56,809 bases of DNA from a candidate division WOR-3 bacterium (GTDB lineage Bacteria; Hydrothermota; Tepidihabitantia; Tepidihabitantales; CAIPLT01). Below, piece by piece: positions 41,843-47,711 of the stretch. The stretch covers positions 1 through 56,809 of the forward strand of contig JAOABV010000007.1 of assembly GCA_026418155.1 (NCBI GenBank). The letters run 5' to 3'. How positions within the stretch are numbered: the first letter of the stretch is position 1; every line of letters starts with the position of its first letter. Position numbers and translations under genes: made by a program. The notes below the pieces were generated by a model. The model was not told the origin of the DNA. It saw nothing but the letters and a program-made list of their open reading frames with translations, and made no database searches.

Positions 41843-44404
41843 ATGCTGATAATACTATGTTGGGCGCTGTTAACCGTCGAGATTAATAAAGATTCTCTTT
41901 TTAGCCGGGCAGGCGAAAATTTACCTGAAATCAAAAAATTTATTTCCTCAGCCGAACACAAAGGGTATTGGCATTGGGCAGAGTTCTTACTTTCAGCAAT
42001 GCCGGATGTTGATTTAGTAAATCTCAAAGCAGACGATTTTATTAAATATTTCGATGCCTTGAAAAAGAATTATAATCGCGTACCCTGGCGAAACAGAATA
42101 AATGATAATCTATTCTATTATTATATCCTTCCTCATCGAGTAAGCCAAGAACCATTAGAGAATTTTACAGTAATTTATGCAGATACATTGTATGAACTGA
42201 TAAAGAAAACAAAAAGTATACGCGAAGCAGTGCTTCGAATTAATGAATGGGTGTTTACTAAGATGAAATATGAACCGACTGAACGCTGGGACCAGAATGC
42301 TCTAACCACCATCAAACGTGGTATTGGAAGATGCGAAGAGATGTCAATTCTATTCATTAAAGCACTTAGGACAGTTTGCATTCCGGCTCGTCATACCTAT
42401 ACGCCTTGGTGGCCATTCACAAATTCCAATCACGCCTGGGTTGAAGTCTGGATTGACGACAAATGGTATTTTCTGGGTGGCGGTGAACTTACAGATCTTA
42501 ACCAAACCTGGTTTGCTATACCTTCAAACAGGACTGCGATCATTAAAAGCGTTGTTTATGGTAAAACCCCTGAAGAATTACTCAAAACCCACAAGTCCAA
42601 TATCAAAAAAGTATCTAGTGGTTTTGGTACTGAAATAATTGATAAGCAAGGGAATGATTATTTAGTCATCAATTCAACTTCTAATTATACAGATGTCATT
42701 GAACTAACGATTAAAATTACAAAGGATAATTTGCCTGAAGAAAGTGTCTCCGTTTCAATCTCAGTATATAATTATTCTTCATTAGCACCGGTTGGTCTGA
42801 AAAAGACCAATAAAAATGGATATGTTCAGTGGTATGTAGGAAAGACAGATTTATTCATTTATGCTTATAAAGATACCAGAATCGGTTATTATATTTGGCG
42901 GCCATCAAATGAAGATTATGATACTATTCAGATTGATATTTCAAAAACTGAATTTCCTGATACATCGTTTTGGTTATATACTCGTAAAGTAACACGAAAT
43001 TTTCCAAAGTCAAGATATAAACCCAATACTAAATTACTTAAGAAATTACAGGAAGAACATTTTACTAAAATCAATTCTCTTGATAGTTTAACAGTTACAC
43101 AATTAGACTCTCAATCACTCAAGATATTTAATGACGCCAAAGGTAATAAACAATCTTTAATCAATTTTTATTTTAAGTTACCTGAAACGAAGAAAACGAT
43201 TTTCCAGAAGTATTTTCAGCATCTGGGGCAAAAAGATCTGGTTGGTTTTGATACCAGTGGACTATATCCAGAACTTTTATCTTTAGAGAAGTCATTAAGT
43301 TGGGCAAATAAAAGCATTCCAGATACGATTATTAGAACATATCTTGTCGCACCACGAATTTTATATGAACGATTAGGAAGTTGGCGCAGTGAACTACAAG
43401 AACATTTTATGAATCTAAGAAAAGCAACATTAAAAGATAAACCAAGAGTTAACCGTGTTGTTAATAATTTATTTGATTGGGTAAAACAGAACCTTAAGAA
43501 AAAAGAAGAAGGAGATTATTTTGGTCCAATGATGAACCCGTTAGATGTTTATAGAGCAAAAAGAGCGACTGACCTTGAACAATATATTTTTATTGTCGGA
43601 GTATTAAGAAGTATTGGCATTCCTGCAAGGATAAAATGGAGTTATGATGCAGTTGAATATTGGGATAATGGTTGGAAAGAACAAAGTTTCGAGCCAAAAG
43701 ACCAGAAAGAGAAGAGGTGGATTGGTTTAAAATTTGAGGCAAATAAGACAGATATTACTGAGCAAGTTGAATATTTCGAAGACTTTAGTATTATAAGATT
43801 TAAAGATACGCCAATACGACTTGAACCAGAAATTGATAATTTTAACAAACGCATAATCATTACACTTAACGCAGAGCCATCATATCTCATTACCGGCTGG
43901 CGAAATGGTTTTGGCGATGTATATGTGCGCATTAAGAAAATTTTACCTTCAAAAGATACCAGTTTTTATAATATAAATATGGATATACCTGAAAATATAA
44001 ATCCTGGCGATTTGATGGTTCGAGAATATAAAGGACTAAGAGATTTAACCAAAATCGGCATTAACGGAAAGACACTAAATAAAGGAGATGTGTTAGTAAT
44101 TATCTTTGATATAGAATCAGAAGCATCTAAATCAACACTTAAAAATGCTTGGCAAGACATAAACTTATTCAAAGGTAAGGTCTATTTATTAGCAGTTGCT
44201 TATGATAAAGAACAAGTTCAAGTTTTTTTGAAAGAAAGGGATATATATAAGGAGAATTTTTATCTTATCAAAGAAGATATTTATAATAAATGGGGCATCA
44301 AAGAACTACCTTCTTTCTTATATTTAAGGGATGGTAGATGTATGTTTTGGGTTGAAGGTCTAAACTTATACATACCTAAGTTGATACAAACTTTTCAAAA
44401 ATAG
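41843..44404 (+). CDS. Large transglutaminase-like protein with thioredoxin-like C-terminus
   Basis: An 853-aa, probably exported protein (short hydrophobic N-terminus, MLIILCWALLTVEI). A first transglutaminase-like domain (~110-220) has the Cys in 'GRCEEMSILFIKALRTVCIPARHTYTPWW', the His in 'NHAWVEVWIDDKWYFL' and an Asp in 'GELTDLNQTW', a plausible Cys-His-Asp triad. A beta-rich segment (~245-370) resembles carboxypeptidase-regulatory domains. A second transglutaminase-like unit (~540-640: 'LEQYIFIVGVLRSIGIPARIKWSY') lacks the Cys and looks inactive. The C-terminal ~110 residues (VYLLAVAYDKEQVQVFLKER, then WGIKELPSFLYLRDGRCMFWVEG) have the thioredoxin fold's cis-Pro region but no CxxC. Role unknown; protein cross-linking or peptide processing at the envelope is possible. 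Confidence 0.75.
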   Translation: MLIILCWALLTVEINKDSLFSRAGENLPEIKKFISSAEHKGYWHWAEFLLSAMPDVDLVNLKADDFIKYFDALKKNYNRVPWRNRINDNLFYYYILPHRVSQEPLENFTVIYADTLYELIKKTKSIREAVLRINEWVFTKMKYEPTERWDQNALTTIKRGIGRCEEMSILFIKALRTVCIPARHTYTPWWPFTNSNHAWVEVWIDDKWYFLGGGELTDLNQTWFAIPSNRTAIIKSVVYGKTPEELLKTHKSNIKKVSSGFGTEIIDKQGNDYLVINSTSNYTDVIELTIKITKDNLPEESVSVSISVYNYSSLAPVGLKKTNKNGYVQWYVGKTDLFIYAYKDTRIGYYIWRPSNEDYDTIQIDISKTEFPDTSFWLYTRKVTRNFPKSRYKPNTKLLKKLQEEHFTKINSLDSLTVTQLDSQSLKIFNDAKGNKQSLINFYFKLPETKKTIFQKYFQHLGQKDLVGFDTSGLYPELLSLEKSLSWANKSIPDTIIRTYLVAPRILYERLGSWRSELQEHFMNLRKATLKDKPRVNRVVNNLFDWVKQNLKKKEEGDYFGPMMNPLDVYRAKRATDLEQYIFIVGVLRSIGIPARIKWSYDAVEYWDNGWKEQSFEPKDQKEKRWIGLKFEANKTDITEQVEYFEDFSIIRFKDTPIRLEPEIDNFNKRIIITLNAEPSYLITGWRNGFGDVYVRIKKILPSKDTSFYNINMDIPENINPGDLMVREYKGLRDLTKIGINGKTLNKGDVLVIIFDIESEASKSTLKNAWQDINLFKGKVYLLAVAYDKEQVQVFLKERDIYKENFYLIKEDIYNKWGIKELPSFLYLRDGRCMFWVEGLNLYIPKLIQTFQK

Positions 44405-44562
44405 TTTTGAAAAAAATTGCCTTTTTCAACAAATTTACCATAGTAGGGTAAATACAAAAGAGAGAAAGTTTTTATAGAGTAAATCTCCAAAATAATAGTG
44501 TTTAATATTTTAATACATTTAAGTTTTATATGTTAAAGATACCGACTATTTATTCTTCTGTC
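44405..44562. other. Spacer after the transglutaminase-like gene
   Basis: AT-rich; no clear terminator for the upstream gene. It leads directly into the promoter at 44563-44590. Confidence 0.3.
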
Positions 44563-44590
44563 TTGACTTTTTAATATTTTTACATATAAT
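44563..44590 (+). promoter_or_regulatory. Promoter of the candidate small RNA
   Basis: TTGACT (44563-44568), 16-nt spacer, perfect TATAAT (44585-44590). The start point is predicted at about 44597. No protein-coding frame follows on this strand. Confidence 0.65.
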
Positions 44591-44596
44591 ATATAC

Positions 44597-44773
44597 AGTC
44601 ATTAAACCAATGATGGAAACAAATAATTGCGGAATTAGGGAAAGTGTCTTCAGACACCCACCCAAAGCATCTTAACCTCCTTCGCCTTTATCCTTACCCC
44701 GGATAAAGGTGTACATAACCTCCTTTCAAAAAAATGTCTGAAGGCAGCCCCATCTTTCCCTAATTCCATTTTT
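44597..44773 (+). ncRNA. Candidate structured small RNA with two exposed anti-Shine-Dalgarno-like loops
   Basis: Predicted transcript of ~175 nt. Seen in the sequence: a small 5' hairpin UCAUU-AAACC-AAUGA (44599-44613); a 14-bp perfect closing stem, GGAAUUAGGGAAAG (44631-44644) with CUUUCCCUAAUUCC (44754-44767), followed by AUUUUUAU; a second 12-bp stem, 44645-44656 with 44735-44746 (one G-U pair); and an apical 9-bp stem CCUUUAUCC/GGAUAAAGG (44685-44693 with 44701-44709). Between the second and apical stems is a large internal loop (28 and 25 nt), and each side carries UAACCUCCUU (44673-44682 and 44716-44725). Those contain ACCUCCUU, the 16S rRNA anti-Shine-Dalgarno core. The rod-with-bubble shape and size recall 6S RNA, which is the main alternative. 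The reverse strand has no promoter of this quality. Confidence 0.6.
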
Positions 44774-44824
44774 ATGTAATCAAATTCTTGTAATTAAATA
44801 GTCCAAATAAATTTATCCAGTAGA

Positions 44825-45952
44825 TTAATTTAAGATTTTAATTAGTTCTTGAGCGGTATTATAAGCACCATTAATTGGTAATTTACCCCATCCTCGTACC
44901 GCCATCTGAGCTAAAATTCCTGACTTATGTAATTCTTTGATAACCTTGGCTAAGTTTCGGGCTTCGGCTATGGTTGATATTGGATAAACAACGCCTTGCT
45001 CTTTAGCAAACTGATAATTTTCTATTGCATAGCTACCAATCATCGGAAACAATACAAACATTGGAATACCTAATCCGACAGCCCAATTAGTATGCTCATG
45101 ACTTGCTGAGACAAAAATGTCAAGTAATGGTAAAAGACGAGTCACTCTTTTTTGATAATCGACACGATGCTTACTTTGGATAAAAACAATTGAGCTTTTA
45201 GGTCTAAAAATAAGATTTTGTTTTTGATTAAGTTGAGCAATAAAATTTCGCGTTTTTTTCTGATTAATACCAGTAAAGACAATAGTCCTAAAGTTATCTT
45301 TAGTTACCGAAATAATTCCTTCAATAATTTTCTGAATATGAGGTTTAGGATATGCTCCAGAAATAAAAAAACCGACCGTTAATGGTTTGTCTGAGTTTAA
45401 CCGCAATAGCCGGGTCTTAAAATTTTCTTCCGCAGAGATGACTAAGTCCGGGCAGATAACCAATCCGCTAACAAAAACAGTGTCAGATTTTACGCCATAA
45501 TTAATAAGTTTTTGTTTGGTTGCTTCGGTCGGAACAACGATTTTTTTAACATTACAAGCACATTCGGGAGGCGCAGCAATTTCTCCATGAATATACCAAA
45601 TATCTCCGTTTAGATTATGGGCTAAAATTGGATGTGAAACTAAAACGACTTGGTGTTTATCGGCAATTTCTTTTTTGATATTCATTAGACAAAATCGAGC
45701 TAATTTATGTCCTTTTCCAGATGCTCGAAATTTATTGTAAAATTTCGTGCTAAGTCCGCCTTGTGCCCCAAAGCAATATAATTTTTCTGAAAATCGCCAG
45801 AAATATTGAGCAAGACCTTTTTCTCTACTCAGGACCTCAAGGTATTTTATAGGTATTCTAGGATTTTGAATTTTTATCGCTTGTAATACATAATCTAAAT
45901 AATAAGGATGGCCTAACCCAATTTCTAAATTAATTGCTAATAGCGATGGCAT
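44825..45952 (-). CDS. GT-B fold glycosyltransferase-like protein
   Basis: A 375-aa protein resembling GT28/MGDG-synthase-type glycosyltransferases. The N-terminus (SLLAINLEIGLGHPYYLDYVLQAI) has the 'GxGH' loop. The middle has 'VVLVSHPILAHNL' and 'KKIVVPTEATKQKLINYGVKSDTVFVSGLVI', as when processive lipid glycosyltransferases pass between lobes. The C-terminal half has 'TVGFFISGAYPKP', 'TIVFTGIN', 'LLPLLDIFVSASHEHTNWAVGLGIPMFVLFPMIGSYAIEN', matching the nucleotide-sugar-binding lobe. It is probably a membrane-peripheral enzyme acting on a lipid or glycan; donor and acceptor are unknown. TTGACA-N17-TAGTCT ends 6 nt before the ATG, with no Shine-Dalgarno. Confidence 0.7.
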   Translation of the reverse strand: MPSLLAINLEIGLGHPYYLDYVLQAIKIQNPRIPIKYLEVLSREKGLAQYFWRFSEKLYCFGAQGGLSTKFYNKFRASGKGHKLARFCLMNIKKEIADKHQVVLVSHPILAHNLNGDIWYIHGEIAAPPECACNVKKIVVPTEATKQKLINYGVKSDTVFVSGLVICPDLVISAEENFKTRLLRLNSDKPLTVGFFISGAYPKPHIQKIIEGIISVTKDNFRTIVFTGINQKKTRNFIAQLNQKQNLIFRPKSSIVFIQSKHRVDYQKRVTRLLPLLDIFVSASHEHTNWAVGLGIPMFVLFPMIGSYAIENYQFAKEQGVVYPISTIAEARNLAKVIKELHKSGILAQMAVRGWGKLPINGAYNTAQELIKILN

Positions 45953-46183: not shown

Positions 46184-47173
46184 ATGGGAAAAATTAAATC
46201 AGATATTGGTAAATTTTCCATCAGTCTAAGTGGCATTGACCCTGTAGCTTTACTCGGATTAGCCGATGAAAATCTTAAACTTATTAATCAATACTTTCAA
46301 TCGCAAATCTCGGTACGTGCTGACCGCATTCGGGTGACCGGTCCTAAATACGAATTAAGTAAAATTCGGGAATTATTCTTAAATTTAATTAACGCCTTAG
46401 AACATAGCGAAAGCATTACTTTAGAACGAGTCGCTCAAGAAATAAAAAATGTTGTCCCTGGACAAAAACTGGTTGTAGAACAGAAAGATAAATCTTTTGA
46501 GATAATAACAACGGAGAATGAAATTCGAACACCCAAAAAAGTAATCATTGCTAAAAGCTCTAATCAAGAACTATATTTACAGGCAATCGATAATTTTGAT
46601 ATTGTAATTGCAATTGGTCCAGCCGGAACTGGTAAAACTTATTTGGCAGTAGCAAAAGCAGTACAAGCATTAATATCAGGGAGAATTAGTCGAATTATTT
46701 TGACCCGTCCAGCAGTTGAAGCTGGTGAACAACTAGGGTTTTTACCTGGCAATTTGAAAGAAAAAGTCGACCCATATTTAAGACCATTGTATGATGCTTT
46801 ATACGATATGCTCCCTTTAGAAAGAATGAAACGATTAATTGACGAACAAATAATTGAAGTTGCACCGTTAGCGTATATGCGTGGAAGAACTCTTTCGGAT
46901 GCGTATGCGATTTTAGATGAAGCTCAAAACACGACTTCAATTCAAATGAAGATGTTTCTTACCCGTTTGGGATGGAATTCGAAAGCAATTGTTACGGGCG
47001 ATGTCACTCAGATAGATTTAGAAAAGAGATATACTTCCGGATTAATAGAAGTTCAGACCAAATTAAAAAATATTGAAGGTATCAAATTTGTCTATTTTAA
47101 TGAATACGATGTCGTCCGACCGCCACTGGTTTCCAAAATCATCAAGGCCTACGAGACAGATAAATCCCAATAA
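46184..47173 (+). CDS. phoH: PhoH-like ATPase (YbeZ)
   Basis: A 329-aa cytoplasmic ATPase linked to rRNA/RNA maturation with YbeY. It has Walker A GPAGTGKT (145-152), 'RIILTRPAVEAGEQLGFLPGNLKEKVDPYLRPLYDAL' and Walker B AYAILDEAQN (~238-247), followed by 'MKMFLTRLGWNSKAIVTGDVTQIDL'. The N-terminal ~100 residues contain the KH-like extension of YbeZ/PhoH proteins. The usual order phoH-ybeY-CBS protein is kept downstream. The promoter predicts a leaderless mRNA. Confidence 0.95.
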   Translation: MGKIKSDIGKFSISLSGIDPVALLGLADENLKLINQYFQSQISVRADRIRVTGPKYELSKIRELFLNLINALEHSESITLERVAQEIKNVVPGQKLVVEQKDKSFEIITTENEIRTPKKVIIAKSSNQELYLQAIDNFDIVIAIGPAGTGKTYLAVAKAVQALISGRISRIILTRPAVEAGEQLGFLPGNLKEKVDPYLRPLYDALYDMLPLERMKRLIDEQIIEVAPLAYMRGRTLSDAYAILDEAQNTTSIQMKMFLTRLGWNSKAIVTGDVTQIDLEKRYTSGLIEVQTKLKNIEGIKFVYFNEYDVVRPPLVSKIIKAYETDKSQ

Positions 47174-47321
47174 ATTAAATGTCAACAAATAATAATATCG
47201 AAGATGGCTACTTAAAAATTATCGACCAATATGATAATCGAACTAAAAGCAAAAACTAAATTAATAGTCCAGATAGTCCAGAAGGATTATTCGGACTTGT
47301 CAATTTTACTTAGGTGGGATA

Positions 47322-47711
47322 ATGAAAATTGAATGCTTAGGAAATGTATCCAAAACTGAAATTAGAACTTATAAGAAATTTGCTCAAACTGTTTTAAAAA
47401 GATTTTATAATCGATTATCACCCAATGCAAAATTCCTTAATATAATATTTGTCAATGACCAATATATCAAAGAGTTAAATAAAAAATATTTAGGTCGCAA
47501 TCGAACAACAGATGTTTTAGCATTTCCCATTAATGAAGAAATATGGGCCGAAATATATATTTCTAAAGACCGCGCCCGAATACAAGCCCAAAAACTGAAT
47601 CTCAGTCCGAAGCAGGAAGTCTGTAATTTGATAAGACATGGTATCCTTCATCTTTTAGGCTTCTCACATCAAGAAATGGAAAAACAAGATTTGAATAATT
47701 TAATTATTTAA
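47322..47711 (+). CDS. ybeY: Endoribonuclease YbeY (rRNA maturation factor)
   Basis: A 129-aa metal-dependent RNase needed for 16S rRNA 3'-end maturation and 70S quality control. The zinc-binding signature HGILHLLGFSH (HGxLHLxGyDH) lies at ~110-120, preceded by 'FVNDQYIKELNKKYLGRNRTTDVLAFP' with the conserved 'R.TDVLSFP'-type motif. It is a little shorter than most YbeY proteins at the C-terminus. AGGTGG sits 5 nt before the ATG. It lies between phoH and two CNNM genes, a conserved neighbourhood. Confidence 0.94.
   Translation: MKIECLGNVSKTEIRTYKKFAQTVLKRFYNRLSPNAKFLNIIFVNDQYIKELNKKYLGRNRTTDVLAFPINEEIWAEIYISKDRARIQAQKLNLSPKQEVCNLIRHGILHLLGFSHQEMEKQDLNNLII

Follow-up and report, generated by a model that had tools for sequence, protein, structure and literature searches.

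A previously undescribed RNA family of a WOR-3 order with a conserved anti-Shine-Dalgarno motif in the internal loop of a covarying rod

The window analyzed here, a stretch of 56,809 nt of contig JAOABV010000007.1 from a candidate division WOR-3 bacterium, carries a candidate small RNA between a transglutaminase-domain gene upstream and a convergent gene of 375 aa (44825-45952, − strand). The 375-aa protein has no Pfam match at E ≤ 0.01; judged by eye, it resembles a protein of glycosyltransferase type. The near-consensus promoter TTGACT-N16-TATAAT, the three stems (14-bp closing, 12-bp and 9-bp apical) and the trailing AUUUUUAU of the original prediction were all found where it had placed them (Table 1). 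The ends of the RNA (44597 and approx. 44775) were deduced from the promoter and from the closing stem with its T-run, respectively. PhoH and YbeY genes, both confirmed by Pfam, lie at 46184-47711, i.e., 1.4–3 kb from the RNA, and YbeY takes part in E. coli in the maturation of the 16S 3′ end, to which the RNA bears a resemblance. Since these two genes are not immediate neighbors of the other homologs of the RNA, their proximity is probably due to chance.

Table 1. Positions of the candidate RNA, its promoter and its structural elements in the window.
Feature	Position	Strand	Basis
Sigma70-type promoter TTGACT-N16-TATAAT	44563..44590	+	TTGACT 44563-44568, TATAAT 44585-44590
Candidate small RNA, predicted transcript of ~180 nt	44597..44776	+	Fold (z = −8.1), homologs, covariation
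Closing stem, 14 bp	44631-44644/44754-44767	+	Fold; 14/15 model pairs double-changed, 96.9% paired
Second stem, 12 bp	44645-44656/44735-44746	+	Fold; 11/11 model pairs double-changed, 99.6% paired
Internal loop, 5′ side, C-rich	44657..44684	+	Largely single-stranded in fold and ensemble
Conserved motif CAUCUUAACCUCCUU; reverse complement AAGGAGGUUAAGAUG reads SD, spacer, AUG	44668..44682	+	23 homologs
Apical hairpin, 9 bp (11 bp in fold), loop UUACCCC	44685..44709 (44685-44693/44701-44709)	+	Fold
Second anti-SD copy AACCUCCUU, 3′ side of loop	44717..44725	+	Less conserved than 5′ copy
Asymmetric C-rich bulge GCCCCAU between two stems	44747..44753	+	Alignment
Closing stem 3′ strand, then AUUUUUAU, terminator-like	44754..44775	+	T-rich stretch after stem, most homologs

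The 180-nt sequence folds on the + strand with a minimum free energy of −54.7 kcal/mol, compared to −28.0 ± 3.3 kcal/mol for dinucleotide shuffles, and none of 200 shuffles folded as well as the RNA. UAACCUCCUU, proposed for both sides of the internal loop, is present on both in the window. The two copies of AACCTCCTT are the only ones in the whole window; since 6 of 100 shuffles also reach two, the word count alone is weak evidence, and it is the comparison with relatives that decides the matter.

A DNA search detected one clear copy, with 73–81% identity, in each of the four further genomes that belong to the window's family (f1), and each of these four relatives preserves the complete structure with its 37 pairs. 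A covariance model built from the four relatives, with the window copy left out (R1), recovers the window copy at E = 9.1e-24 and also matches, more weakly, copies in the families f3 and f4, whose stems consist of entirely different sequence. A second model built from f3 and f4 only (R2) recovers all f1 copies (window copy, E = 1.9e-9), additional f3 copies and a new family, f5. The recovery of f1 members by a model derived from other families argues most strongly for regarding the copies in f1, f3, f4 and f5 as one RNA family. The RNA was found in 23 of the 28 genomes of the order, distributed over these four families and exactly once per genome, while the covariance models gave no match in the other five genomes of the order and none in 119 other genomes of the phylum. 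Beyond the phylum, the distribution was probed with a single exact f1-type word. Scanning contigs for the exact word GCATCTTAACCTCCTT yielded no homolog beyond f1 among the loci rescanned. Matches to GCATCTYAACCTCCNY outside the order were rejected as homologs, as those which were folded contain no such RNA; they resemble gene starts read backwards.

The 23 homologs were aligned (alignment A8) by fitting them to the structure of the model, a procedure which favors pairing counts, and 98.0% of the cells are paired in this alignment compared to 43–50% when the partner is slid by 1–3 columns. Both sides have changed in 25 of the 26 pairs, and 186 double-change cells were counted vs. 55 ± 6 in shuffles. 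The compensatory stem changes, for which a covariance model of related genomes had been suggested as a check, are therefore massive: the stem sequences are rewritten almost completely between families, with the pairing retained. Single-sequence folds, which are alignment-free, return the same rod, with z-scores of −6 to −8 in f3, f4 and f5. The pairs of the apical hairpin are preserved through changes in f1; in f4 this hairpin is absent or different. At the site of the bulge, CCCC(A/G) is kept in most homologs.

A promoter is located upstream on the + strand of all 23 homologs, with a mean of 1.04 mismatches out of 12 positions, compared to 4.43 on the opposite strand and 3.99 in shuffles. Pairing in the homologs involves 35 G·U cells vs. 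5 A·C cells when the + strand is read, and the R1 scores are 175–181 bits on this strand vs. 34–52 bits on the other for the four f1 relatives, and 106 vs. 30 bits for the window copy. Because of the G·U pairs and the promoters, we take the + strand to be the functional one. The complement of the loop reads as SD, spacer and AUG with ideal spacing, which would suit an RNA of the opposite strand that displays AAGGAGGUUAAGAUG, with ribosome binding or the coding of a short peptide as its function. However, the G·U excess, the higher model scores and the promoters all fall on the + strand, the short reading frames on the other strand are of varying sequence and length, and AUG is missing there in f4. 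A function of the opposite strand was thus rejected as scarcely credible.

The gene which follows the RNA (PdxA, RtcA or others) is convergent with it in the window and in nearly all members of f3, f4 and f5. A PdxA gene flanks the RNA in most of f3. A gene for RtcA (RNA 3′-phosphate cyclase) adjoins it in f4, f5 and part of f3 (loci L036, L037, L038, L228, L039 and L040), convergently and at a distance of 4–5 nt in f4; this synteny in three families supports common descent, or a functional link. The four f1 relatives (G001–G004) have a gene with a Mut7-C RNase domain on the same strand, 11–119 nt downstream, where the RNA could be a cis-acting leader or attenuator. However, there is no gene to lead in most other homologs, since the next gene is convergent, and this reading was dismissed as extremely improbable. 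Based on the own promoters, the T-rich stretch which directly follows the closing stem in most homologs, the differing flanks and the usually convergent next gene, we conclude that the window RNA is a stand-alone, single-copy RNA gene.

The loop motif is the only strongly conserved primary sequence of this RNA. CAUCUYAACCUCC is found in 19 of the 23 homologs and its part AACCUCC in 22; the exception, in G006, is AAACUCC, which differs by one substitution. AACCUCC is unpaired with a mean probability of 0.90 over the 23 homologs (0.95 in the window copy). As the 16S rRNA of relatives ends in GGAUCACCUCCUUU, the motif carries the anti-Shine-Dalgarno (anti-SD) core ACCUCCU of the 16S tail. The variable pyrimidine Y is U in f1 and C in f3 and f5, either of which is still antisense to a usable start region. 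Since this conserved word reaches as far as the start codon, the loop looks like an antisense of the entire site on which the ribosome lands. The f4 copies have a shorter motif, AACCUCC, from which CAU is lost, and this marks the SD-pairing part as essential. CAUCU could instead be conserved for a small hairpin, AAG-CAU-CUU or GAG-CAU-CUC, which can form in f1 and part of f3 and is impossible in f5.

Fold, homologs and covariation thus agree with the original prediction in that this is a real non-coding RNA with CCUCC as a conserved single-stranded part of its loop. The predicted anti-SD core is conserved as well, but had to be refined to a longer word antisense to SD, spacer and AUG. Invariance of CCUCCUU, expected for both sides of the loop, nearly holds for the 5′ site; the 3′ site is variable outside f1 and f4. 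CCUCC is present there in f1, f4, G015 and G020 (in the latter two largely or half paired), CCACC replaces it in the genera g6 and g9 and in f5, and the copy is missing in g12. In two f1 relatives, the leader 5′ of the rod holds GATGCTTTGGGTG (G001, L034:1381-1500) or, at the corresponding place, GATGCTTAGGTGGC (G004, L033). Both are nearly complementary to the loop stretch CACCCTTAAGCATC, making an alternative pairing possible which would hide part of the motif. No leader element of this type was seen in the window copy or in G002 and G003.

Size, a rod with one large bubble and a strong own promoter are also properties of 6S RNA, which binds sigma70-RNA polymerase and templates product RNA. 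A divergent 6S RNA, binding the polymerase via a promoter-like bubble, had been named as the alternative. The 6S model (RF00013) has no match at the RNA, neither at gathering nor at E ≤ 10 on 44400-44840, and none in 13 homolog loci; the comparison with Rfam therefore gave no strong 6S match, as the anti-SD reading required. Further, the bubble is near-invariant in the anti-SD motif it carries, and separate 6S matches exist elsewhere in all five f1 genomes and many others (48 of 60 relatives searched, at sites that differ from those of the RNA where both are listed). The genome of the window (G000) itself holds a separate 6S gene at C36:8814-8988, which scores 53.3 bits and exceeds the Rfam cut-off of 46.4. 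Some bacteria carry two 6S RNAs, and a second 6S gene alone is not absolute evidence. Nevertheless, with a 6S gene elsewhere in the same genome and no match of the model at the RNA, we conclude that the RNA is not an ordinary 6S RNA, and regard a divergent one as very improbable.

Searches of the window against Rfam 15 returned no family at gathering scores, nor any credible match near the RNA at E ≤ 10, and no publications on covariation of WOR-3 non-coding RNAs were found in the open-licence literature. The RNA family, without a match in Rfam 15, is previously undescribed; it is new, belongs to an uncultured phylum and is very strongly supported by covariation. With regard to the working principle, its nearest counterparts are the cuckoo sRNAs and Yfr1/Yfr10, although the architecture and, as far as testable, the ancestry are not shared. 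In the alpha-r14 or “cuckoo” sRNAs of Alphaproteobacteria (NfeR1 and relatives), an ultraconserved CCUCCUCCC is unpaired, the stems are free to vary and pairing with multiple targets is predicted (PMC10746234). The window RNA likewise combines an unpaired, ultraconserved anti-SD word (AACCUCC, 22/23 homologs, 0.90) with freely varying stems (25/26 pairs). However, cuckoo sRNAs form three hairpins, each with CCUCCUCCC unpaired, whereas the RNA described here is one rod with AACCUCC(U) in an internal loop; its motif is a different and longer one, includes CAU and occurs in another phylum. Yfr1/Yfr10 are widely conserved in cyanobacteria and have a short pyrimidine motif in which UCCU is needed for pairing (PMC6778093). 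They resemble the window RNA in that a short conserved motif lies in a single-stranded region and different contexts are allowed (PMC6778093). Their motif separates two hairpins or occupies a hairpin loop, in contrast to the 6S-like bubble and the extended complement of SD, spacer and AUG found here. C-rich single-stranded stretches also pair with mRNAs in the C-rich-loop sRNAs of Firmicutes (RoxS/RsaE, csRNAs). Of the PmaR/AbcR1 sRNAs of Agrobacterium, AbcR1 reportedly acts through an anti-SD region (PMC6234868). All of these share a C-rich single-stranded stretch with the window RNA, but their fold is a different one and the Rfam search gave no homology. The bubble of a 6S-like rod thus represents another way to present an anti-SD word.

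The reverse complement of the motif, AAGGAGGUURAGAUG, consists of an SD, a 5-nt spacer and AUG. Strong SDs in G000 mostly have 3–5 nt between AAGGAGGU and the start, and the motif implies 4. Matches to a AAGGAGGUUAAGAUG-like pattern are about 10-fold more frequent than those of a reversed-pattern control in many genomes of the order, and most of the retrieved matches begin reading frames at that AUG. Judged by sequence, AAGGAGGUUAAGAUG-like stretches are real gene starts in these genomes.

The RNA shows several features of a trans-acting anti-SD sRNA, namely an own promoter in 23/23 homologs, a T-rich end in most, no fixed neighbor, complementarity to ribosome-binding sites and a core shared with the 16S tail. 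Because it displays a perfect antisense of ribosome-binding site and start codon, blocking of the translation start is probable, and action in trans is favored by the own promoters and by neighbors which change between families. We consider it probable that the RNA is a trans-acting, Hfq-independent antisense RNA which blocks initiation on SD-led mRNAs. The long and freely rewritten rod would keep the internal loop open and so display CAUCUYAACCUCCUY; the loop would pair in trans, over up to ~15 nt, with the ribosome-binding sites of strong-SD mRNAs, and such pairing would keep the 30S subunit off the mRNA. Hfq was not found in 8 genomes (the control search was positive), which is consistent with long, stable pairing without Hfq. 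Pairing with mRNAs in the cell, the repressive effect and the mRNAs that matter are what we infer as most likely from the sequences. A wider role as a global initiation regulator is conceivable, if doubtful: an abundant “anti-start-site” RNA (anti-SD, spacer and CAU) might compete with the 16S tail for every strong-SD message and so shift synthesis between strong-SD and SD-less mRNAs, or might titrate readers of the 16S 3′ end. This raises the question of one RNA regulating strong-SD messages as a class where most genes have no strong SD and Hfq was not found.

The main rival to the antisense reading is a mimic of the 16S tail, read by a protein such as Era. In this case, the partner of the loop would not be an mRNA but a protein or the machinery of ribosome assembly (e.g., Era, S1); the RNA would titrate that factor or regulate 30S assembly or hibernation. 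Era recognizes GAUCACCUCC near the 16S 3′ end (PMC6738653), and a comparable AUC...ACCUCCU is exposed in the single-stranded loop. A conserved loop on a rod is typical of protein-binding RNAs, and no mRNA target specificity was found in the samples of G000 and G013. However, AUC and ACCUCC are 3 nt farther apart than in 16S, f4 lacks AUC altogether and retains CCUCC, and CAU sits exactly at the place of the start codon. We therefore consider a 16S mimic rather unlikely.

Candidate targets of an antisense RNA were sampled in 457 kb of G000 and 800 kb of G013, with start codons picked by a simple rule. In G000, an SD word of at least 4 nt precedes 28% of first ATGs vs. 7.6% of interior ATGs. SD-led starts are thus a minority, which is compatible with the proposed switch between SD-led and leaderless mRNAs. 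One rule applied to both samples gives a strong SD for 27% of the genes in G000 and for 53% in G013, so that usage varies within the order. In the sampled sequence, the predicted duplex energy favors gene starts over interior starts only slightly, and no gene class preferred by the motif beyond SD strength was found in either sample. Genes with signal-peptide-like starts have stronger SDs in G013. Secreted proteins appeared as candidate targets there (anti-SD energy, p = 1.2e-5), but SD strength alone explains this: among strong-SD genes of G013, the energy of the motif adds nothing (p = 0.65), and G000 shows no effect. A single conserved mRNA target was rejected as well, since start regions with at most 1–2 mismatches fall in different genes in each family, except for a pair of secreted proteins which resemble each other, in f4 and f5. 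The absent specificity agrees with a broad regulator of strong-SD messages as well as with a set of targets beyond the resolution of pairing energies computed on sampled sequence. One start region, AAGGAGGATAAGATG, is a single mismatch from full complementarity to the motif and occurs in two genera (L176 in G000:C84, L169 in G004:C7); judged from sequence alone, the gene behind it resembles a type III CRISPR RAMP subunit.
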